A DNA stretch of 64,000 nucleotides from Bacteroidota bacterium (GTDB lineage Bacteria; Bacteroidota; Bacteroidia; Flavobacteriales_D; Crocinitomicaceae): positions 62,001 to 126,000 of the forward strand of contig JACPUU010000012.1 of NCBI GenBank assembly GCA_016192075.1, written 5' to 3'. Of the stretch, positions 2,948 through 29,982 are shown in pieces (position 1 is the first letter of the stretch; every line of letters starts with the position of its first letter). Below the pieces are notes generated by a model that worked only from the letters and a program-made list of their open reading frames with translations, searched no databases and was not told where the DNA came from. The translations under genes and the position numbers were made by a program.

Positions 2948-3457
2948 CTAAAGTCCGGTCGTTGAAAAAAGCCGGAGTTGTTCGGTCTCACCAGGTAATA
3001 GAATTGTACCTTCCGGTTTCATTCCAACTTTCTGCAGCACGGCTATGGATGCCTTATTTTCAGGTAGTGTAATGGCTATAACACGTTTTAAGTGAAGTGT
3101 GTTAAAAGCGTAGGCCAGGCAAGCGTTTGCAATCTCTGTAGCATAGCCTTTTCCGGTAAACTCAGGCAGAAAAGCAAATCCCAGATCCACGTCATCCAGC
3201 CCGGGTCTTTTAATCAATCCACACATACCAACCAACTCACCTGAAGAAATCAATTCAACCGCGCTCAGGCCAAACCCGTTCACACGATAACTTTTCAGCG
3301 GCCCTTGTCTGAGGTAATTTTGCGCATCGGCCAGGGAATGTACATGCCGGTCACCAATGTATTTAAGCCAGCCAGCTGTATTCAAAAGTTTCAGTATAAA
3401 AGAAGTGTCATTTAGTGTAAAGGGTCTTAAAATCAGCCTTTCGGTTTCTGGTTTCAT
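2948..3457 (-). CDS. GNAT acetyltransferase, RimJ/RimL type
   Basis: This is a 169-residue acetyl-CoA-dependent N-acetyltransferase of the Acetyltransf_3 (RimJ/RimL) group. These enzymes modify amino groups of ribosomal proteins, small molecules or antibiotics; the substrate cannot be read from the sequence. The N-terminus ETERLILRPFTLND is the family opening. The acetyl-CoA binding loop is FLPEFTGKGYATEI (Q/RxxGxG/A-like), followed by the usual NxxSxxVLQKVGM segment as NKASIAVLQKVGMKPEG. I chose ATG 3457 because it leaves two residues before the conserved ETERL; an upstream TTG at 3490 would add eleven unlike residues. It is a single gene, divergent from the next one. Confidence 0.85.
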   Translation of the reverse strand: MKPETERLILRPFTLNDTSFILKLLNTAGWLKYIGDRHVHSLADAQNYLRQGPLKSYRVNGFGLSAVELISSGELVGMCGLIKRPGLDDVDLGFAFLPEFTGKGYATEIANACLAYAFNTLHLKRVIAITLPENKASIAVLQKVGMKPEGTILLPGETEQLRLFSTTGL

Positions 3458-3567
3458 TTGGGGTGTATTTGAATTCAGGGCAATGGTCAAAAGTACAATT
3501 TGAACGCTGAATTCTCCGGCTGGCAGGTTTTTTAGCTAAATTTCGGCTTATCACATTCATAAAATCA

Positions 3568-4194
3568 ATGAAAAAAGCATTTTTAATAGCAGCGCTTGGA
3601 ATGGTAGTTGGGGGAACTTGTATGAGCCAACGAAACAATGATGCCCTGGGCGGGGCAATGAATAATACAGAAGATTTTGACGATGCAATGGAGAGCTTCG
3701 AAAGAGGAGGAGCAACCAATGCAGAAGAATATTTTTTTGGTGTTCAGGCAATGGTGGTGATAATTGATGTGAAATTACGGGCAGTTGAGTACCTTGATTC
3801 AATGGATGCTAAACCAGAAGAAATAACATCACATTGTGATGACATGCTTAAGCTGATTAAAAATTGCAAAAAAGCAATGCAGCGGTATGAGGGAAAAGGC
3901 TGGACGATGCAGGATAAATTGCAGGCACTTACCATAGAGTGGGTTGACGCAGTGAAAATGCTGGTAAATAATTATATAAAACCTTTGGCAATTCCCTTCT
4001 CAATTCCTGATAAAGATTGGAAGGACGCTGATTTTGACTTTTACGACAAGTACCTGGCTGCCTATGAGATCTATTTGGAAATAGACAACCGCTGGGTTGA
4101 TTTTCAGTATGAATTCGCTGCTGCAAATGGATTTGAATTGAGTGCTGAAACAATTGACATGGATCCATTGATTAAAGAAGAAGTGGGGCAATAA
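3568..4194 (+). CDS. Secreted or exported protein, tandem paralogue 1 (lipobox lost)
   Basis: The 208-residue protein aligns end to end, without gaps, with the protein of the next gene. Both share ERGGATN/EEGGATN, EEYFFGVQA, YEGKGW, LQALTIEWVDAVK and SRWVDFQYEFA-like blocks. It is acidic and helical in character. The N-terminus MKKAFLIAALGMVVGG is a signal-type stretch. Cys18 is kept, but the residues before it are Gly-Gly-Thr, which is a poor lipobox. It may therefore be cleaved as an ordinary secreted protein or stay anchored. I do not recognise the family with confidence; it may belong to a group of small bacterial surface lipoproteins. A recent gene duplication is the simplest origin. Confidence 0.8.
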   Translation: MKKAFLIAALGMVVGGTCMSQRNNDALGGAMNNTEDFDDAMESFERGGATNAEEYFFGVQAMVVIIDVKLRAVEYLDSMDAKPEEITSHCDDMLKLIKNCKKAMQRYEGKGWTMQDKLQALTIEWVDAVKMLVNNYIKPLAIPFSIPDKDWKDADFDFYDKYLAAYEIYLEIDNRWVDFQYEFAAANGFELSAETIDMDPLIKEEVGQ

Positions 4195-4349
4195 GTTTGC
4201 CGTGGGATTATCAACGTAAACGAATGTATTTGGCACCATTATTCTAAAAGTGCAGTGCCAGTGGCTTAATACACAATTTATCGGCATATTTCAACCATTC
4301 ATCGGAAATTTGTTTAAATTCGGGCCGACTAAATAAAATTTAAAATCAA

Positions 4350-4976
4350 ATGAAAAAATCATTTTTAATGCTGCCGCTTGGTTTGGCCTTTTTGGCTTCA
4401 TGTGGCAATCAGCCTGACAACGAGGCGTTGAATCAGATAATGGAAGACAATACTGATTTTGTAGAGGCCACTGTAAGCTTTGAAGAAGGCGGTGCTACAA
4501 ATGGTGAAGAATATTTCTTTGGTGTGCAGGCTGAAGTGGTTGAAATCGACGTAAAATTACGTGAGGTTGAAAACCTGGACGAAATGGATGCAACCGCTGA
4601 AGAGTTTGGTATTCATTACGACACCATGCTTGTTATGATTGAAGATTGCAAAACAGCAATGAAACAATACGAAGGTAAAGGCTGGCCTAAACAAGATCAA
4701 TTACAGGCGCTTACTATTGAGTGGGTTGATGCTGTAAAAGGATTGGTAAATGATCACCTGAAAGCATTGGCCGCTCCAATGTCAATTCCGGATGATCAGT
4801 GGAAAGACAAAGACCTGGAACTGTATGATGAGTACCTGGTTGCTTATGAAGCATACCTTGAAATAGACAGCCGTTGGGTTGATTTTCAGTATGAATTTGC
4901 AGACGCAAACGGATTTGAATTAAGCGATGAAACAATTGATACAGACGCGCTGATTGAAGAAGATATGGCACAATAA
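4350..4976 (+). CDS. Putative lipoprotein, tandem paralogue 2
   Basis: This 208-residue protein has a signal peptide ending in the clear lipobox LASC (Cys18), so it should be lipid-anchored in the envelope. The mature part is very acidic and contains EEGGATNGEEYFFGVQAEVV, YEGKGWPKQDQ and SRWVDFQYEFADANGFELS. It is a full-length paralogue of the preceding gene at the same orientation, 155 bases downstream, and both upstream regions carry a similar TAAATTYCGG stretch. It is followed by a strong terminator. Function unknown. Confidence 0.85.
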   Translation: MKKSFLMLPLGLAFLASCGNQPDNEALNQIMEDNTDFVEATVSFEEGGATNGEEYFFGVQAEVVEIDVKLREVENLDEMDATAEEFGIHYDTMLVMIEDCKTAMKQYEGKGWPKQDQLQALTIEWVDAVKGLVNDHLKALAAPMSIPDDQWKDKDLELYDEYLVAYEAYLEIDSRWVDFQYEFADANGFELSDETIDTDALIEEDMAQ

Positions 4977-6069: not shown

Positions 6070-9000
6070 ATGCGCCTGCTTTTACTAACAATCTTTTTGT
6101 CTTGTGGATATCTGGTACACGCGCAGGATTATTATCCGCCAATAGTCAATTATTCTACCCAGCAATATGGTAAAGACCGTAATCCTGAAATCTGGTGCGC
6201 CGTTCAGGATAAACGCGGGGTTATGTATTTTGGAACAGGCAACGGCGTACTTGAATTTGACGGCCAGCAGTGGGATTTTATAACGGTACAAACCGGTGCC
6301 TACGTGCGGGCCATGGCCATTGACAGCAGCGGTGTGGTTTACGTTGGCGGATCAGGTGAATTTGGATACCTGGAACCCGATGAAACCGGTCAGCTGCAGT
6401 TTCAGTCGCTCACCGGCAAACTGATGGAAGAAGATCTTTTCTTTTTTGATATCTGGAAAATTCACGCCACCCGGTCTGAAGTATTTTTTCAAAGCCAGGA
6501 ATCGCTGATTCGCTATGATCTTGCAACCAAAACCACGGCTGTTATTTATCCTGAAAATAGTTATCACCTGAGTTTTATGGCAGCTGGTAACCTTTATGTA
6601 AGAGCACGCCAGGAGGGAATTCAGAAATTTGAAAATGGCAAACCTGAAATTTTACCGGGAACAGAATTATTCAAAGAATATGGCTTGTTTGGTGTTTTTG
6701 AAACAGCTGATGATTCCCTGCTTTTTGTAACGCAGGAACTTGGTTTATGGAAATGGAAAAACGGGGTTATGCGCCAGCTTCCTGAACTGAATTATGCACC
6801 GCTCAACAGTTTTGGTATTGTGGGTTCCATTCGTTTATCTGAAGGCAGTATTGCGTTAAGTACCCTGACAAACGGAGTTATTATTATTGATGAAAACGGA
6901 AAAATCAAGAAACGGATTGACCGGTCCAAAGGCATGCGCTCCAACGAAGTGAAAAGTATTTTTGAAGACCGTGATCAGAATATCTGGGCCATGTTGGGTA
7001 ATGGTATAGCAAAGGTTAATTATCATTCACCTTTGTCTTATTTCAATGAAAAGTCGGGTATTGAAGGCAACGTAGAGGCGGTTATACGCTTCAACAACCG
7101 GCTTTATGTAGGTACATCATTCGGACTTTTTGTACAGAATGGTGCTTCATTTGGCAGTCCTGAATTTGTAAATGCCATGGTAATACGCAACCAGGTTTGG
7201 GATTTTTGTGTGGTAGATGATGAATTATATATTGCTACTTCAGGCGGGGTATACAAAACCCGGGGGTACCATCCTGCGTTGATCAATGCTGAAAATATAA
7301 CGCTGAATTATGCAGATTATAATTTCCAAAAACTCAACGACCATAACGCCAACGTCGTTTATTTTTCAAAAGAATACAATGTATTTGTAATTGCCGGGGC
7401 AGATGGAATTTTTGCCTATGACCGGGCGTTTAAGGAACTCTGGGCATCTGAAAATATTTCTGCCCGTTTTTTAAGTGCAGAAATGGATCCGGAACATAAA
7501 AATGATTTGTGGATTGGTAGTGTTGGGGGCGGGGTATACCGGCTGCGGCTTGGTGCTGAGCAGTATGTGATTGACCAGTATTCATCCATGGATGGTTTGA
7601 ACGATGATCAGCTGGGGAAACCCATTTTATTCAACGACCGCATCATTTTTGGTTCCAGCCAGGGATTATTGTCGTTTACGCATGAAGATGAAATGGTAAA
7701 AGGACTGGCAGATAGTTTAAAACATGACCCGACTTATTATCGCGGCATGTTTCAGGGCGAGCCGTTTTATGATTCTGTTTTTTCAGCCCAGATATTGCTT
7801 GTACAGCAAGACAAAGACCGCACCTGGTTTTGCGCAGATGATAAAATCGGTTATTATGACTACCAGTCAAAGACGTTTATCAATAAACCTTTCTGGGGTA
7901 TCAACTACGGCCGTGTAAATGAGTTTTACCTGGAAGAGAATGGTGTTTTCTGGATTGGCTGTGCAGATGGATTAATCCGCTATGAAAAAAATGATCAGAA
8001 AAAATACCGGTCAACCTTCTATTCCCTGATCCGTGAATTTTCAATTAACCGTGATTCGGTCATCTTTAACGGTACGTTTGCTGATTCTACCGGCATTGTG
8101 CAGTTGGGGCAAAGTGAAGCGAAACACTTTGAATTGTCGTACCAGTTTAATGATGTGTATTTCCGTTTTTCAGCCCCTTATTTTGAAGATGAACATTCAC
8201 CTGAGTTTTCATTTATTCTGGAAGGGCATGACGATGAATGGTCTGAGTGGAGTACAAAAAATGACGCCAATTTTACCAACCTGCATGAAGGGGAGTATAC
8301 CTTCAAAGTAAAAGCGCGTAACATTTACGGTCACATTTCTGAAGAGGCATCGTTTAAATTTACCGTATTGCCTCCCTGGTATCGCACTACCTGGGCGTAT
8401 GTACTTTATGTAGTTGCTTTTATTATTATTTTCTTCATTGGTGTTAAAATAAGTTCGGCCCGTTTGAAACGTCAAAACCAGTGGCTTGAAGGAGTGGTTG
8501 AAGAGCGTACCCGTGAAATCAAGGATAAAAATGAAGTGCTTGAACATCAGAAAAAAGAAATTCAGGACAGTATCAACTATGCCAAACGTATTCAGCTGGC
8601 TATTCTTCCGCTGGAAGATGAAATGAAAAAATGGATGCCCGATTCATTTGTCCTCTTCAGACCAAAAGATGTGGTTTCTGGTGACTTTTACTGGTTTCAG
8701 GAAAAAGACAACAAACTGATTGTTGTGTGCGCAGACTGTACAGGTCACGGCGTGCCGGGTGCGTTTATGAGTATGATTGGGTCTGACAGGCTGAATAATA
8801 TTGTGAATGAGTTGCGGGTGCTTAATCCCGGAACTATTTTGTCTGAATTGAGCCGTGCCATTAAAAAATCACTGAAGCAGGATGGTGAAAAAGGCAGTAC
8901 GCGCGACGGAATGGATGCAGCTATTTGTATGATTGACCTGGCAAAAAAGACCATGATCTATGCCGGTGCAAACCGCCCGCTTTGGATTGTGCAGGACGGG

Positions 9001-9327
9001 CAGGTTGAAGAAATAAAGGCCAATAAAGTTGCTGTAGCCGGCTTTACGCCAGATGACCAGGTGTTTGATGAACATGAAATACCACTCAAACCCGGACTTA
9101 AATTTTACATGACCAGTGATGGCTACGCCGATCAGTTTGGCGGTGAAAAAGGAAAAAAATACATGGTTAAAAACATGAAAGAATTTATTCTGCAGCATTG
9201 TTTTGAAGCTTATTCAAAACAGCGTGACCAGCTTGAAACAGAACTTGTACGCTGGATGGGTGACCATGAACAGATTGATGATGTTTGCGTAATAGGGTTT
9301 GATACCACCACCCTTTTTAAGCAGTAG
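6070..9327 (+). CDS. Membrane sensor with beta-propeller and SpoIIE (PP2C) phosphatase
   Basis: The 1085-residue protein has a signal peptide (about 1-18, ending VHAQ), then a long periplasmic part with repeated two-component-regulator-propeller-like blades (such as EDRDQNIWAMLGNGIAKV and ENGVFWIGCADGLIRY) to about residue 690. A Y_Y_Y domain follows (LEGHDDEWSEWS to YTFKVKARNIYG), then one membrane helix (about 775-797), a coiled coil, and a cytoplasmic SpoIIE phosphatase domain. The metal ligands are seen in SGDFYWF, CADCTGHGVPGAFMS, DGMDAAIC and TSDGYADQFGG. By analogy with RsbU/SiaA it should dephosphorylate an antagonist protein in response to an extracytoplasmic signal. A possible partner kinase is encoded at 12804. 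It is transcribed alone. Confidence 0.9.
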   Translation: MRLLLLTIFLSCGYLVHAQDYYPPIVNYSTQQYGKDRNPEIWCAVQDKRGVMYFGTGNGVLEFDGQQWDFITVQTGAYVRAMAIDSSGVVYVGGSGEFGYLEPDETGQLQFQSLTGKLMEEDLFFFDIWKIHATRSEVFFQSQESLIRYDLATKTTAVIYPENSYHLSFMAAGNLYVRARQEGIQKFENGKPEILPGTELFKEYGLFGVFETADDSLLFVTQELGLWKWKNGVMRQLPELNYAPLNSFGIVGSIRLSEGSIALSTLTNGVIIIDENGKIKKRIDRSKGMRSNEVKSIFEDRDQNIWAMLGNGIAKVNYHSPLSYFNEKSGIEGNVEAVIRFNNRLYVGTSFGLFVQNGASFGSPEFVNAMVIRNQVWDFCVVDDELYIATSGGVYKTRGYHPALINAENITLNYADYNFQKLNDHNANVVYFSKEYNVFVIAGADGIFAYDRAFKELWASENISARFLSAEMDPEHKNDLWIGSVGGGVYRLRLGAEQYVIDQYSSMDGLNDDQLGKPILFNDRIIFGSSQGLLSFTHEDEMVKGLADSLKHDPTYYRGMFQGEPFYDSVFSAQILLVQQDKDRTWFCADDKIGYYDYQSKTFINKPFWGINYGRVNEFYLEENGVFWIGCADGLIRYEKNDQKKYRSTFYSLIREFSINRDSVIFNGTFADSTGIVQLGQSEAKHFELSYQFNDVYFRFSAPYFEDEHSPEFSFILEGHDDEWSEWSTKNDANFTNLHEGEYTFKVKARNIYGHISEEASFKFTVLPPWYRTTWAYVLYVVAFIIIFFIGVKISSARLKRQNQWLEGVVEERTREIKDKNEVLEHQKKEIQDSINYAKRIQLAILPLEDEMKKWMPDSFVLFRPKDVVSGDFYWFQEKDNKLIVVCADCTGHGVPGAFMSMIGSDRLNNIVNELRVLNPGTILSELSRAIKKSLKQDGEKGSTRDGMDAAICMIDLAKKTMIYAGANRPLWIVQDGQVEEIKANKVAVAGFTPDDQVFDEHEIPLKPGLKFYMTSDGYADQFGGEKGKKYMVKNMKEFILQHCFEAYSKQRDQLETELVRWMGDHEQIDDVCVIGFDTTTLFKQ

Positions 9328-9483
9328 TTGCCTTGTCCGATGATTTGATGGGTTGATGCTGTCAATAAGGAGTTGATTTATTAATTCATTGATAATCAGT
9401 TTGTTTTGTTGTCTGATGCGATTTAAGCAGATAAAACAAAAGAAATTACCGGTAATGATTTGGTGAATCTGATTTATTCTTCG

Positions 9484-23672: not shown

Positions 23673-24443
23673 TTAGTTAAACTCAACCGCATTCAGAATC
23701 AGCCCAGAAGAAGGCCCAATGTGCCTTACCGGAACATCGCTTGAACCGGAAAGCGTCTCTTTCAGATCAGCCAGGGTTGATTCTCCTTTCCCCAAACTGA
23801 TTAATTGCCCCATCATCAGTCGGACCTGGTAACGCAAAAAACCGTTTGATTTTACCCGGAAAAAGTACGTTTGCTCCGGAAAGAAGTTTGCCGTAAATAA
23901 CGTATTCGGTATAATTTCACACACATCAATCGTTCGTATAAAATTCTGCCCGGGTTTAGGTTCTGCACAATACCTTCTGAAATCATGAGTGCCTGCAAAA
24001 TATGCAGCTCCGGTGCGCATCAGGTCCAGGTCCAGCGTTTCATCAATACTCATTACCTGGGCAGCGCAAAAGGGGTTATTCTTTTGTCCGTGCGTAAACA
24101 AATACAAATATTCTTTTGCTTTTGCAGCGTGTATAATATTGAATTCGCTGGTGGTTTTTTCAATTTTCAGTGCGCGTATGTCGTTGGGTAAGTTTTTGTT
24201 GAAACGCGGCAGAAAAGCAGTAGCATCGATGTCTTCGTCTGTAAACAATTCAAAGACGTAGTGATTGGCAGATACTTTTGCATCCGTTCGGCTGCAGCCA
24301 AGCGTTTTAAAGTGGTTGTGCTGAAACAGAAACTCAAAAGTTTTTTCAACCATTGCCTGAACCGTTTTGTAACCGGGTTGTTTCAGCCATCCGTGATAGC
24401 GAAATCCCAGGAACTGGATGTGGAAGAGGTAGTGGTTTTTCAT
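23673..24443 (-). CDS. truA: tRNA pseudouridine synthase A
   Basis: TruA converts uridines 38-40 in the anticodon arm of tRNAs to pseudouridine. The 256 residues contain the catalytic aspartate in GCSRTDAKVSA (D near residue 54), the N-terminal FLGFRYHGWLKQPGYKTVQ and the C-terminal FRVKSNGFLRYQVRLMMG. The length is normal. It is followed downstream on the same strand by its own gap and appears monocistronic. Confidence 0.95.
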   Translation of the reverse strand: MKNHYLFHIQFLGFRYHGWLKQPGYKTVQAMVEKTFEFLFQHNHFKTLGCSRTDAKVSANHYVFELFTDEDIDATAFLPRFNKNLPNDIRALKIEKTTSEFNIIHAAKAKEYLYLFTHGQKNNPFCAAQVMSIDETLDLDLMRTGAAYFAGTHDFRRYCAEPKPGQNFIRTIDVCEIIPNTLFTANFFPEQTYFFRVKSNGFLRYQVRLMMGQLISLGKGESTLADLKETLSGSSDVPVRHIGPSSGLILNAVEFN

Positions 24444-24736: not shown

Positions 24737-25300
24737 TTACTTACTATTTTTATAATTTTTAATATTGTTTCGGATGTAGTTTCTGACCATAATAAAATGG
24801 CCATAATCTTTAATTATTTCTTCGTAATAATCGCGTTGAAATAATTTGGTCGGTTTTCCGGTTTTCTTTTTGTAGTCTGAAGTTACCCCAAATTTGAATC
24901 CTCTGATAATGGCACCTATTGTTTTTGAAGGAGATTTGAAATTTGTATCTGTTTGGTCAATAAAATTCTCTTTCCAGCTTCTCATTTGAAAAATACTTTC
25001 TATATCCGCTGAATCAGAATTGAGTTCATCTCCTTTTATTTCAATGATTCCATGTATATGATCTGGTAGAATTACAAATTCAAGTAGCCGTACATTCGGA
25101 TAATATTCTTGTATTTGAAACCATCTTTCGTGAACCATTTTTCCAAGTTCAGACAAGTTCATTTTTCCGTCTGAGATTTCTCCCAACAAAGGGTTTCTGT
25201 CTTTGACGATGTTAGTGACAAAGTAGAATCCAGGTTTAGAGTAATCATATCCATCCAGCCGAATAGATCTACGATGGTGAAAAAGAGGATCGTAACTCAT
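24737..25300 (-). CDS. REP-associated tyrosine transposase (RAYT)
   Basis: The 187-residue protein is of the TnpA_REP / Y1_Tnp HUH group, related to IS200/IS605 transposases. It contains the opening RRSIRLDGYDYSKPGFYFVT, the HUH motif in VILPDHIHGIIEI (HIH), and the end RDYYEEIIKDYGHFIMVRNY, which carries the likely catalytic Tyr region. RAYTs nick and mobilise short palindromes rather than full insertion sequences. It is flanked by three such palindromes. The length and reading frame look intact. Its base composition is more AT-rich than its neighbours', which would fit acquisition from elsewhere, though I could not compute this. Confidence 0.9.
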   Translation of the reverse strand: MSYDPLFHHRRSIRLDGYDYSKPGFYFVTNIVKDRNPLLGEISDGKMNLSELGKMVHERWFQIQEYYPNVRLLEFVILPDHIHGIIEIKGDELNSDSADIESIFQMRSWKENFIDQTDTNFKSPSKTIGAIIRGFKFGVTSDYKKKTGKPTKLFQRDYYEEIIKDYGHFIMVRNYIRNNIKNYKNSK

Positions 25301-25413: not shown

Positions 25414-26958
25414 TTACCAATCAATCGGAAAATAGTCTTTCAGAAATTTACCATTCCAGTGTTTGCCGGTGTTGATTCCATCAAACAGCGGATCACAGAC
25501 CCGGGCGGCGCCGTCTACAATATCAAGCGGCGGTTGAAAGTCGTGTATGTCTTGCTTGTGCTTGGATAATTCAACCGGGTCTTCATCGGTTACCCAGCCG
25601 GTATCAACGGCGTTCATAAAAATACCTTCTTCACCCAGGCTTGATGCGGCCGTATGTGTCATCATATTCAAAGCGGCCTTGGCCATGTTGGTGTGTGGAT
25701 GCCGGTCGGCTTTTTTGAAACGGTGAAACTTACCTTCCATGGCCGAGACGTTGATGATGTGTTTTTTGCCGGTGTAGTCTTTTTTCATCAGATCAAGCAG
25801 GCGGTTGATCAATACAAATGGGGCAACTGCATTTACCAGTTGCACTTCAATCATTTCAGCCGTTTCTATTTCACCCAGTTTGAGTCTCCAGCTGTTTGTT
25901 TTTCGCAAGTCAACCTGTTGTAAATCGGCGTCGAGTTTTCCTTCGGGGAAAACTTCTTTTGTGTCCAGTGAGTTGTCAAATTTGTATGGAATCTGCGATA
26001 ACAGTGCTGATGCGCGGATACCAATCCCAGGTTCCACGCCATGCCAGGTAACTGCCAGTGAATTATTCGCATCGGTTCCAATGGCGCCAAAACCTCTCAG
26101 ATCATTGACACATTCTTTGTGGCTCGATAGTAAAAGTTGTGCCTCGCGGGAATGATTTTCAAACGGTAAATTTTCCATTTCCATCAGGTGAGAATAAAAC
26201 CCGGAAGGTCTTCTCACCGTTTGCGCGGCATTATTTATGATAATGTCCAGCCGGTTGTAGTTTTGCTTAAAATAGCTGGCAAAAAGTTCAACACTGGGAA
26301 TGTGTCTCAGATCAAGTCCATGAATTTTTAGCCGGTGGCCCCAGTCTTTAAAATCTTCTTCTTTTGAAAACCGTATGGCCGAATCTGCGGGAAAACGCGT
26401 TGTGGCAACTACTGTAGCGCCGGCACGTAACAGCATTAGCGTGGCGTGATAGCCTATTTTTAAACGGGACCCGGTGATCAGTGCAACCTGTCCTTTGAGA
26501 TCAGCAGTTTGAAAGCGTTTGATGTAGTTAAGATCACTGCATTTTTCACACATACTGTCATAGAAGTGATGCAGTTCATTGTATTCTGCTTTGCAGACAT
26601 AACAGTTGCGGGGTGAAGATAAAATGCGTTTTTCTTTTTTCTCCTGCAGCGTTTCGCCGGGCAATTGTTTGGGTGCTTCAAAAATGGCATTTTCACGTGC
26701 TTTTCGGATTGCCGCTTTGGCGCGTTCTTTTTTGTCGCTGAGAATGTTGGCTTGTTTTCGGGTGAATTTAACCGCCTTGTTCCGCTTTTTAATTTCTTTT
26801 TTGTCTGGCCGTGAAAGCTGACCTGCGGCTTTCATCAGGGCAACACGCTGTTCGGGAGAAAGCTGTGTGAGCTGATCACCGTTTTGCTGCAGAAATTCAA
26901 GCAGTGAAATGGCCGAATTAATTTCGTCGGCGTTTAATTTTCGTGAGTCGTCTGACAT
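25414..26958 (-). CDS. SDR-fold protein with N-terminal zinc finger and altered catalytic Tyr
   Basis: The 514-residue protein has a charged N-terminal part (about 1-115), a four-cysteine finger (C119, C122, C137, C140 in CYVC...CEKC) and a short-chain dehydrogenase domain from about residue 150. The cofactor motif TGSRLKIG (162-169), the structural INNAA (241-245) and the active-site Ser (S405 in NVSAMEG) are present. The Tyr of YxxxK is replaced: the segment reads HTNMAKAAL, with Thr423 where Tyr is expected and Lys427 kept. The domain is longer than a normal SDR, with an insertion between about 255 and 370. The substrate is unknown. The gene stands alone, with a -7 box at 27005. Confidence 0.82.
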
Positions 26959-27994: not shown

Positions 27995-29896
27995 TTAATC
28001 TTCAGCCAGCACAATGATATAATCATCGGGTGCAAAGGTCACGGTTTTTGATTTATCCGGATTCATGTATACACCAAAGTCATTTTCTGATTGCTGTGCT
28101 TGTGATGAAATGCGGTATCCGAAAGCCGTTTCGTTGATTTGTGCGGCGCTTTCAGCTACGGTATAAAAATTCATTGGAACACCGGTTTTTACATAACGGC
28201 TAACCGGCTTCAGGTAAATTTCAGATCCTTCTGCTTCAAAAAGTACATCGTATACTTTTTTTAGGTCTTTGTTTTCACTCAGCTGGCTAAGCATTAAACT
28301 AATCAGGTTGTCGCTGACAATAAAATCATCGGCTTTGGCAACAACACCCAGTTCGCGGTTTTGAATATCCAGCATTTCAGATACAATGGCGTAATCTTTA
28401 TTGTGCTGCTCACTGAAATTGCGCAGGTGGAGCAGGCATATCAGTGTTTTTGCATCACTTTCCTGCACATCAATGTGGGTATAGCTGAGCAGAATGATGT
28501 GATCGTAAATTTCTGTTTTCAAATTAACCAGCGTTCTACGGTCATTGATATCGCCTTCTTTATACGTGAGTGACTGGCGTTTTAGACTTGCCTTCAGATC
28601 GTCAAGGTCATCCTGAATGTCAATACCTTCAGCCATAATTAATACTTCTGATCCCTTAGCTACATAATTGTCCAGTTCTTCAATGATTCTTTTTCCTTTT
28701 TCATTCCATCCGAGAATCAGTGTCCGTTCAATAACCGGTTCTTTTTCTGTGTCACGGTGAAAGGCATCTGCTGTGATTTTGTAATCTGTTTTGTTGCTCA
28801 AAACCACCGTGTCGTCGTCTTCAGAAATGGCAATAACCTGGTCACCTTTCTGCAATTTATAATCCATCGGCGGGTTAATCAGTACAGAAGCTTCTTTGGT
28901 AAATACGCCCAAAACAGAAGAAGTCTCATACATCATAATGGATTCTTTATAGGTTTTTCCAACCAGGTTTGGTTCATCTGAAAAATAAATTTCATCTCCT
29001 TCAAACTGCAGCAGGTCACTATACACTACACTTAAACCTGATTGGCGGCAGGTTTGTGCAGTGATGCGCGAAATCAGGTCTGATGAAAGTACAAAAATGG
29101 TTTCATCGTTTCCAACCAGTTCAGCGGCCTCCATGTTTTTCGGATCTTTCAATTCGGCAACAATGTGGTATGGTTCTTTCCGGCGGTTTTTTCCGTTGGT
29201 AATGGCAAGCACAGATTTGATCACATAAGTATCTGTATTTTCTTCTTCACCGGCCAGTACAATGATAGAACGGGCTTCATTTGGATTGACCACGTTGATG
29301 GATGCCGAAGAAAGCGGGGAACCGCTGCGTACAATAATTTTGGTGTTTTTGGTATTGGTGATGCGCTGACGGATTTCATCATCCATCTCTTCTTTATCAC
29401 GATTTGCCAGAATAACAATGCTTGGTTTTTTCTGATTTGAATTGGCTTCAATTACTTCTGTAAGAATGGAAAATATTTTTTCAGACCATCCCAGAATCAG
29501 GGTGTGGTTTGATTCCAGCACTTTTGACTTTCCTTTTTTGAGTTCACTTAATTTGCCGTCAATACCGGATGAAATAGTACCAATTAAAATTGACAGTAAA
29601 AAGAGTGACCCAAGCGTTGCAACAAAGCGGACAGCTCTGAACTCCCATCCCTGGTCGCCTGCCATAGCACCCTGATCCAATGTGGACATCAGAATCTGCC
29701 AGGCACCTTCAATAAACCCAAGGTCTTCCTGCGCGTCAGGCGCTCCCTTAATACCTGCAATGGCAATGATAATACCTAAAATCACCACTACAAAAAGCGA
29801 TGCAATGGCCAGCCATTTGATAACGCCCATAGGGCCTGATGACATGGTGTTTTCGAAGTAGTAACGAATTCGTGCTTTTAAGCTGTGCTTTGCCAT
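27995..29896 (-). CDS. CASTOR/POLLUX-type ion channel with RCK domains
   Basis: The 633-residue protein resembles bacterial relatives of the plant CASTOR/POLLUX (DMI1) cation channels. The N-terminus SLKARIRYYFENTMSSGPMG is typical, followed by a helix (about residues 30-55), a pore-like region (GAWQILMSTLDQGAMAGD) and another helix (RFVATLGSLFLLSILIGTIS). Two TrkA-N/RCK-type nucleotide-binding halves follow, LILGWSEKIFSILTEV and LILGWNEKGKRIIEEL. From ATG 29896 the start agrees with the family; TTG 29926 would add ten residues. The ion and ligand are not evident. The gene appears monocistronic. Confidence 0.87.
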   Translation of the reverse strand: MAKHSLKARIRYYFENTMSSGPMGVIKWLAIASLFVVVILGIIIAIAGIKGAPDAQEDLGFIEGAWQILMSTLDQGAMAGDQGWEFRAVRFVATLGSLFLLSILIGTISSGIDGKLSELKKGKSKVLESNHTLILGWSEKIFSILTEVIEANSNQKKPSIVILANRDKEEMDDEIRQRITNTKNTKIIVRSGSPLSSASINVVNPNEARSIIVLAGEEENTDTYVIKSVLAITNGKNRRKEPYHIVAELKDPKNMEAAELVGNDETIFVLSSDLISRITAQTCRQSGLSVVYSDLLQFEGDEIYFSDEPNLVGKTYKESIMMYETSSVLGVFTKEASVLINPPMDYKLQKGDQVIAISEDDDTVVLSNKTDYKITADAFHRDTEKEPVIERTLILGWNEKGKRIIEELDNYVAKGSEVLIMAEGIDIQDDLDDLKASLKRQSLTYKEGDINDRRTLVNLKTEIYDHIILLSYTHIDVQESDAKTLICLLHLRNFSEQHNKDYAIVSEMLDIQNRELGVVAKADDFIVSDNLISLMLSQLSENKDLKKVYDVLFEAEGSEIYLKPVSRYVKTGVPMNFYTVAESAAQINETAFGYRISSQAQQSENDFGVYMNPDKSKTVTFAPDDYIIVLAED

Positions 29897-29982
29897 TTGC
29901 GCTGGTTTTAAATTGAAGGACTCCAAATTTGGGATTTTTTATCCGAAAAAACCAAGGAAAGCAGGAATTAAATACCGGGAAG

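Follow-up and report, generated by a model that had tools for sequence, protein, structure and literature searches.

A widespread protein family with a predicted SDR fold, fixed threonine and lysine substitutions, a cysteine quartet and a basic helical arm

The gene at positions 25414..26958 (minus strand) of the window, by which we mean the whole 64,000-nucleotide stretch of DNA analyzed, encodes a member of a real, conserved and widespread family. Its members combine a predicted SDR fold, fixed threonine and lysine substitutions, a cysteine quartet and a basic helical arm. We tentatively regard the protein as an NADP(H)-binding SDR-fold enzyme using a proton donor other than the classical tyrosine. 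With threonine fixed in place of tyrosine in many phyla, together with two histidines and an altered glycine loop, the family represents a natural test of a tyrosine-less SDR. Furthermore, genes for RNA helicases or RNA modification sometimes adjoin the SDR gene, a hint of an RNA-linked redox protein that has so far gone unrecognized. Among the papers listed in our literature search, no title names such a family, and its motif strings matched no paper.

Domain organization

The open reading frame starts with ATG and spans 514 amino acids: a basic helical N terminus, a CxxC-x14-CxxC finger and an SDR-fold domain with an insert. All features given here lie on the minus strand. Based on the model and on the charge over the aligned rows, the helical arm comprises residues 1 to 115 (26614..26958). 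The model and the alignment place a putative treble-clef-like finger, with the invariant Cys119, Cys122, Cys137 and Cys140, at residues 116 to 148 (26515..26613). Pfam and structure matches delimit the SDR Rossmann-fold domain to residues 151 to 508 (25435..26508).

Within this domain, the alignment locates the altered glycine motif TGSRLKIG (residues 162 to 169; 26452..26475), the NNAG-equivalent motif (residues 241 to 250, beginning with INNAA at 241 to 245; 26209..26238), the insert separating the NNA motif from the Asn376 helix (residues 251 to 355; 25894..26208) and Ser405 (25744..25746). HPHTNMAK (residues 420 to 427; 25678..25701) holds His420, Thr423 and Lys427; its K-7 and K-4 positions are named with reference to an excerpt of PMC9260719. 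A preliminary description of this DNA had reported INNAA, Ser405, HTNMAKAAL with Thr423, and the four cysteines ahead of the SDR domain, and we found all of them at these residues of the 514-amino-acid frame. The large insertion that it had noted after the NNA motif is also borne out, Asn243 and Asn376 being 133 residues apart. Across the family, the stretch aligned to residues 251 to 354 varies from 63 to 128 residues and has a negative mean net charge; it is directly followed by a conserved NSW (residues 355 to 357).

Distribution of the family

Scanning genome contigs with the window protein retrieved 174 related stretches. The best 80 of these reach 64 to 73% identity in their best segment, nearly all spanning most of the protein, and we therefore rule out a mis-translated or decayed gene, an artifact to which we assign a negligible probability. 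Titles among these 80 comprise Bacteroidota, Bacteriovorax- and Bdellovibrio-like bacteria, Scalindua, a Spirochaete, Calditrichota and a Proteobacterium; misbinning is possible because many relatives are MAGs. Four plasmid records (Streptomyces twice, Deinococcus and Tsukamurella), three of which were read, contain relatives with about 42% identity over 75 to 80% of the protein.

In our genome samples, whose phylum names were taken from the title of each sample's central genome, the family was found in 14 of the 198 genomes of the window's phylum (E up to 1e-40). At E up to 1e-30, it was present in 26 of 144 genomes from the phylum of a Bdellovibrio-like genome (G198), 35 of 199 from that of a Scalindua genome (G199) and 4 of 247 from that of a Proteobacterium (G202). 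The distribution is patchy. One of the 14 genomes of the window's phylum, G088, has a divergent copy (C2:533185-533802; 42% identity over residues 64 to 266); it shares its genus code with G029, whose copy has the typical form.

We built a quick tree, without bootstrap, from 65 of the 145 aligned rows. Its 8 phylum labels require 9 changes, the minimum possible being 7, so the rows cluster largely by phylum. The Spirochaete row falls inside Bacteroidota, Calditrichota groups with Planctomycetota, and distant rows have long branches. This tree allows some horizontal transfer without demonstrating much of it. A Lutibacter contig (L080) has two family copies, at 3111-4664 and 7810-9357, with a 931-amino-acid frame in between, and these copies fall in separate parts of the tree.

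Some frames of the Planctomycetota sample reach 600 to 1158 codons. In five such genes that were read (L105 and L171 being the same gene, and the longest frames, G410 and G479, being left out), the additional sequence precedes the conserved arm and looks by eye like open-frame read-through rather than a fused domain. A phage gene was rejected since none of 50,697 phage records matched at E up to 1e-10 and none of 11 pattern matches in viral contigs encodes a relative, and a defence gene since no PADLOC family matched at E up to 0.01.

Conservation of key residues

The alignment comprised 145 distinct rows (150 before identical ones were removed) with eight phylum labels. Because two rows are half-gene fragments of one genome, each key column holds 144 letters, and these rows, being related, do not amount to 144 independent tests. 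Invariant in all 144 are the four cysteines; Thr162, Gly163, Arg165, Lys167, Gly169, Arg188 and Asn243; Asn376, His420, His422, Thr423 and Lys427; and Asp452-Thr453-Gly454-Trp455 and Glu459. Residue 405 is Ser in 121 rows and Thr in 23. The lowest identity to the window protein among the aligned rows was 37 to 40%. Thr423 and the Cys quartet, to which the preliminary description had drawn attention, are hence conserved in every lettered row, down to 37% identity, which speaks against a chance pattern.

We then looked for a tyrosine that might take over the acid role. Tyrosine is conserved at 95% or more only at positions 120, 133, 255 and 509. None of these lies between Ser405 and Lys427. The refuting check proposed in the preliminary description did not overturn it, since homologues retain both Thr and the Cys quartet. 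A tyrosine such as Tyr509, near the C terminus, could still reach the active site.

SDR fold and cofactor loop

In Pfam, the window protein matched PF00106 (1.9e-16, over the cut-off; best stretch 157 to 251) and PF13561 (1e-13; best stretch 362 to 459), and the insert sits between the two pieces. These are general SDR models, and no specific Pfam name was returned for the protein. Among the NCBIfam matches listed (25 of 174), every score was far below its cut-off. An AF2 model of the whole protein, made from 55 rows, had a mean pLDDT of 76 and a pTM of 0.75, with stretches below 50 that include residues 292 to 308, 331 to 339, 341 to 363, 408 to 419 and 457 to 460. Among the 50 structure matches listed for residues 151 to 508, known SDRs aligned over 218 to 245 residues with Z scores of 21.6 to 23.0 and rmsd of 2.6 to 3.6. 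They include tropinone reductase I, FabG and sulfoquinovose dehydrogenase, several of them solved with NADP(H), and the first Foldseek row for the SDR domain was at 1.9e-09. Residues 151 to 508 are thus predicted by the model to adopt an SDR Rossmann-type fold.

TGSRLKIG, which the preliminary description had given as a kept Rossmann motif, is indeed present, but the loop is not intact: in all 144 rows Lys167 takes the place of the middle Gly of TGxxxGxG, the first and third Gly being retained. Arg165, equally fixed, stands two residues before it. The lysine had been passed over in that description. With Arg188 right after strand 2, and Arg165 and Lys167 in the loop, the protein would be expected to prefer NADP over NAD.

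Active site

In the SDR alignments shown, Lys427 falls on the Lys of YxxxK, while Asn376 and Ser405 match the helix Asn and the Ser of SDRs, respectively. Thr423 falls on the catalytic Tyr in the first alignment of one set, and small gaps shift this spot by at least one residue in others, so its assignment rests on the K-4 spacing. With this basis, we agree with the earlier placement of Thr423 in the catalytic Tyr position. The statement accompanying it, that Tyr is nearly invariant in active SDRs, was too strong. Mitochondrial dienoyl-CoA reductase, for instance, has Ser at K-4. FabI-type SDRs use Yx6K according to an excerpt of PMC9260719. That excerpt gives Yx2(x)Mx3K as the motif of FabI-type enoyl reductases and Yx6K (Yx2Mx3K) for E. 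coli FabI, which puts Tyr at K-7 and Met at K-4 (PMC9260719). Our family reads H420-x2-T423-x3-K427, that is, the FabI register with His replacing Tyr. Neither the classical YxxxK Tyr nor the FabI Tyr is present in any of the 144 rows, Thr occupying K-4 and His420 occupying K-7 throughout. The Asn, Ser and Lys of the classical tetrad are all represented, by Asn376, Ser/Thr405 and Lys427.

We infer from the sequence that the displaced acid is probably a histidine. It could be His420, at the FabI-type K-7 position, or His422, and Thr423 would fill the hydroxyl slot. Hydride transfer would be retained, and the insert may shape the substrate site. Both readings offered in the preliminary description, a substitute acid or a regulatory or RNA/DNA-linked protein, are compatible with these results. 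The geometry of the acid is unproved, as the loop beside His420 (residues 408 to 419) was modeled with a pLDDT below 50.

N-terminal arm and finger

Over 143 rows, net charge averages +8.4 (range, 1 to 14) in the stretch aligned to residues 50 to 118, and +5.5 in the whole part before Cys119. A model of the front part (residues 1 to 155, 45 rows; mean pLDDT 82, pTM 0.54) is helical up to about residue 107, followed by strands at 111 to 118 and 125 to 129 and by a helix at 138 to 147. One Cys pair lies in the inter-strand turn and the other at the helix start, which we read as a treble-clef-like plan in this model. The quartet would be expected to hold zinc, and the basic arm and the finger may dock the enzyme on nucleic acid or on a ribonucleoprotein.

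Searching the PDB with the fold of the front part gave 60 matches at E up to 10 and none at or below 0.001. The best, at E 0.64, was a ribosome chain, and one VIA row had a Z score of 2.6. Many of these non-significant rows are small chains of ribosome entries, which we take, by name and length, to be uS14/eS29. Eukaryotic uS14 has an x14 spacing, in agreement with the CxxC-x14-CxxC of the finger. A profile search of the PDB with the front part gave three matches up to E 10, the best at 0.97 and none convincing. As none of them is named uS14, we keep homology of the finger to uS14 as a lead only. In Pfam, residues 1 to 155 of the window protein had a single hit, CFC, at 10.8 bits (cut-off, 23.2). 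Among the families listed (25 of 48) for the front parts of 45 members at E up to 1, CFC appeared in 19 members (best, 0.04), Rad50_zn_hook in 6 (best, 0.0026) and HypA in 5 (best, 0.00081).

Neighboring genes across family loci

We surveyed the neighbors at 135 family loci and the window. The anchor was detected in 129 loci and the window, corresponding to 131 anchor genes because L080 holds two. The 20 control loci lay on the same contigs (40 kb away, start to start, in 19 and about 31 kb in one) and came from Bdellovibrionota- and Planctomycetota-sample genomes only. Neighborhoods were mostly variable. A helicase cluster was found in 15 of the 135 family loci versus none of the 20 controls, a difference that is not significant (p 0.22), and the stretch read contains no helicase in the other 120. 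This cluster also takes in RecQ-type DNA helicases (L036 and L169). Among 256 directly adjacent open reading frames, helicases (9) were the commonest cluster shared between phyla, a larger one of 15 being limited to Bacteroidota titles. An ABC-ATPase-like cluster (named by eye) occurred in 26 loci, one of them a control, more than the 15 of the helicases, and was never adjacent.

Helicase frames numbered 21 among 1,397 neighbors versus 4.2 expected at a density of 0.3% (Poisson, 4e-09, or 5e-07 at 0.4%), with related loci treated as independent, several helicases sitting in one locus and the helicase family picked after the neighbors had been seen. The density of 0.3 to 0.4% derives from five genomes of 3.1 to 4.7 Mb, each with 8 to 12 PF00270 genes, assuming about one gene per kb; four of these five had been chosen for carrying the SDR-helicase pair.

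A co-directional DEAD-box helicase lies upstream of the SDR gene at 23 bp in L025, 8 bp in L051, 44 bp in L080 and 15 bp in L180 (distances from open reading frame calls, earliest start, stop codon excluded). This represents 4 of the 131 genes, and 4 of the 29 with a co-directional upstream neighbor within 60 bp. L180 belongs to the Planctomycetota sample, and the other three have Maribacter, Mesonia and Lutibacter titles, respectively. Counting these three as one event leaves 2 of 29, with a chance of about 0.003 at 0.3% density before correction for multiple families. Three of the four helicases (L051, L080 and L180), from two phyla, carry a DbpA RNA-binding domain, which was also found in more distant helicases of L004, L034 and L182. 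In L034 (83-8616), a DbpA-domain helicase, a cold-shock domain protein and a second DEAD helicase surround the SDR gene, together with a short protein that clusters with a DEAD-like one of L084.

Other recurrent neighbors were MsrB-like, DoxX-like and truncated-globin-like proteins (all named by eye) and VF530 (PF09905). The small truncated-globin-like protein adjoins the gene on the opposite strand in L014, L017, L019, L024, L027 and L037. VF530 adjoins it in five loci (L021, L030 and the Scalindua loci L070, L073 and L076), and is present in 13 of the 14 Bacteroidota genomes with the family versus 56 of the 184 without it. Within genus g8, VF530 is present in G021, G025, G057 and G084, none of which has an SDR match. 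We rejected VF530 as a partner: relatedness accounts for much of the co-occurrence, which weighs little because VF530 is common in the lineages holding the SDR gene.

Genes around the window copy

Downstream of the SDR gene, on the same strand, lies a gene resembling REP-associated tyrosine transposases (24737-25300, minus strand), both family matches of which, NF047646 included, are below their cut-offs. It is followed by a TruA-like pseudouridine synthase gene (23673..24443, minus strand), which reaches 125.8 bits with TIGR00071 (cut-off, 142.85) and keeps the RTD motif. This gene is a paralogue, since a further TruA with 26% identity to it is encoded in the genome. In L064, a relative of the paralogue meets the 3' end of the SDR gene or, depending on which start it uses, overlaps it slightly, by a few bases; in L049, the distance is 4.7 kb and the relative is on the opposite strand. 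At E up to 1e-40, the paralogue occurs in 11 of the 198 Bacteroidota-sample genomes, the window's included, and 4 of these 11 are among the 14 SDR-carrying genomes, counting the window's and the divergent G088 (Fisher p 0.004, kinship ignored). The two genes are about 670 kb apart in G029 and about 170 kb apart in G182, and lie on separate contigs in G088, which makes the link weak; we did not retain the paralogue as more than a possible partner. On the other side, at 27995-29926 (minus strand), the window encodes a Castor/Pollux-type ion channel protein with an RCK-like domain.

Alternative explanations

A stand-alone small-molecule reductase, with a purely structural finger and with RNA-related neighbors owed to common regulation under stress or cold, or to chance, is rather unlikely in our view. 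It would account for the variable neighborhoods and for the recurrence of MsrB-like, DoxX-like, globin-like and VF530 neighbors. The ABC-ATPase-like cluster, found in more loci than the helicases, and the cold-shock domain protein within the helicase cluster of L034 also speak for it. However, the four cysteines vary no more than the catalytic core, residues 50 to 118 stay basic, and two phyla have DbpA-type helicases directly upstream of the gene. Less probable still is a non-catalytic scaffold or sensor that binds NADP(H) and has RNA or DNA as its target, comparable to the SDR subunit of human mitochondrial RNase P. The missing Tyr at the catalytic place, the altered glycine loop and the basic front end with its Cys quartet would all fit such a role. 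Yet Asn376, Ser/Thr405, Lys427 and the two histidines are retained in an active-site motif without drift, and a dead scaffold would not obviously need the first three to be kept together.

These observations leave an NADP(H)-binding enzyme with a displaced proton donor as our preferred, tentative reading. A more specific proposal, which we consider improbable at present, is a ribosome- or RNA-linked oxidoreductase whose basic arm and finger would bring the SDR domain to RNA. It would work with DbpA-type helicases (in some lineages also with a second TruA-like protein) and, with a histidine in a FabI-like register, carry out a previously undescribed NADPH-dependent reduction on RNA or on a ribosomal factor. 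Charge, finger plan and gene neighbors suggest the RNA theme, none of them being decisive alone. If this link were true, the family would bring a redox enzyme into RNA or ribosome biology, one for which we know of no described counterpart.

Comparison with known systems

The family shares with classical SDRs (PF00106/PF13561: FabG, tropinone reductase and gluconate 5-dehydrogenase) the Rossmann fold, the opening TG and the final Gly of the loop, an NNA motif and three tetrad residues (Asn, Ser/Thr and Lys). It differs from them by Thr for Tyr, by Lys for the second Gly, by an insert of about 100 residues and by the N-terminal arm and finger. Mitochondrial 2,4-dienoyl-CoA reductase has a Ser at K-4, similar to our family in placing a small hydroxyl residue there, and its acid is a Tyr elsewhere; we know of no finger of this kind in it. 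The peroxisomal dienoyl-CoA reductase 4fc6 was among our structure matches. SDR5C1/MRPP2 retains the classical Tyr and is not known to have a zinc finger, and in both respects it differs from the family. The likeness lies in its work with RNA, as an SDR of human mitochondrial RNase P, described in an excerpt of PMC10602865. Like the family, FabI-type reductases (Yx6K) carry a proton-capable side chain at K-7, and their K-4 residue is not a Tyr. The family departs from them in having His for Tyr, and its closest sequence matches are classical SDRs. Finally, the family keeps Ser/Thr405 at the position where InhA has F149, as given in the excerpt of PMC9260719.
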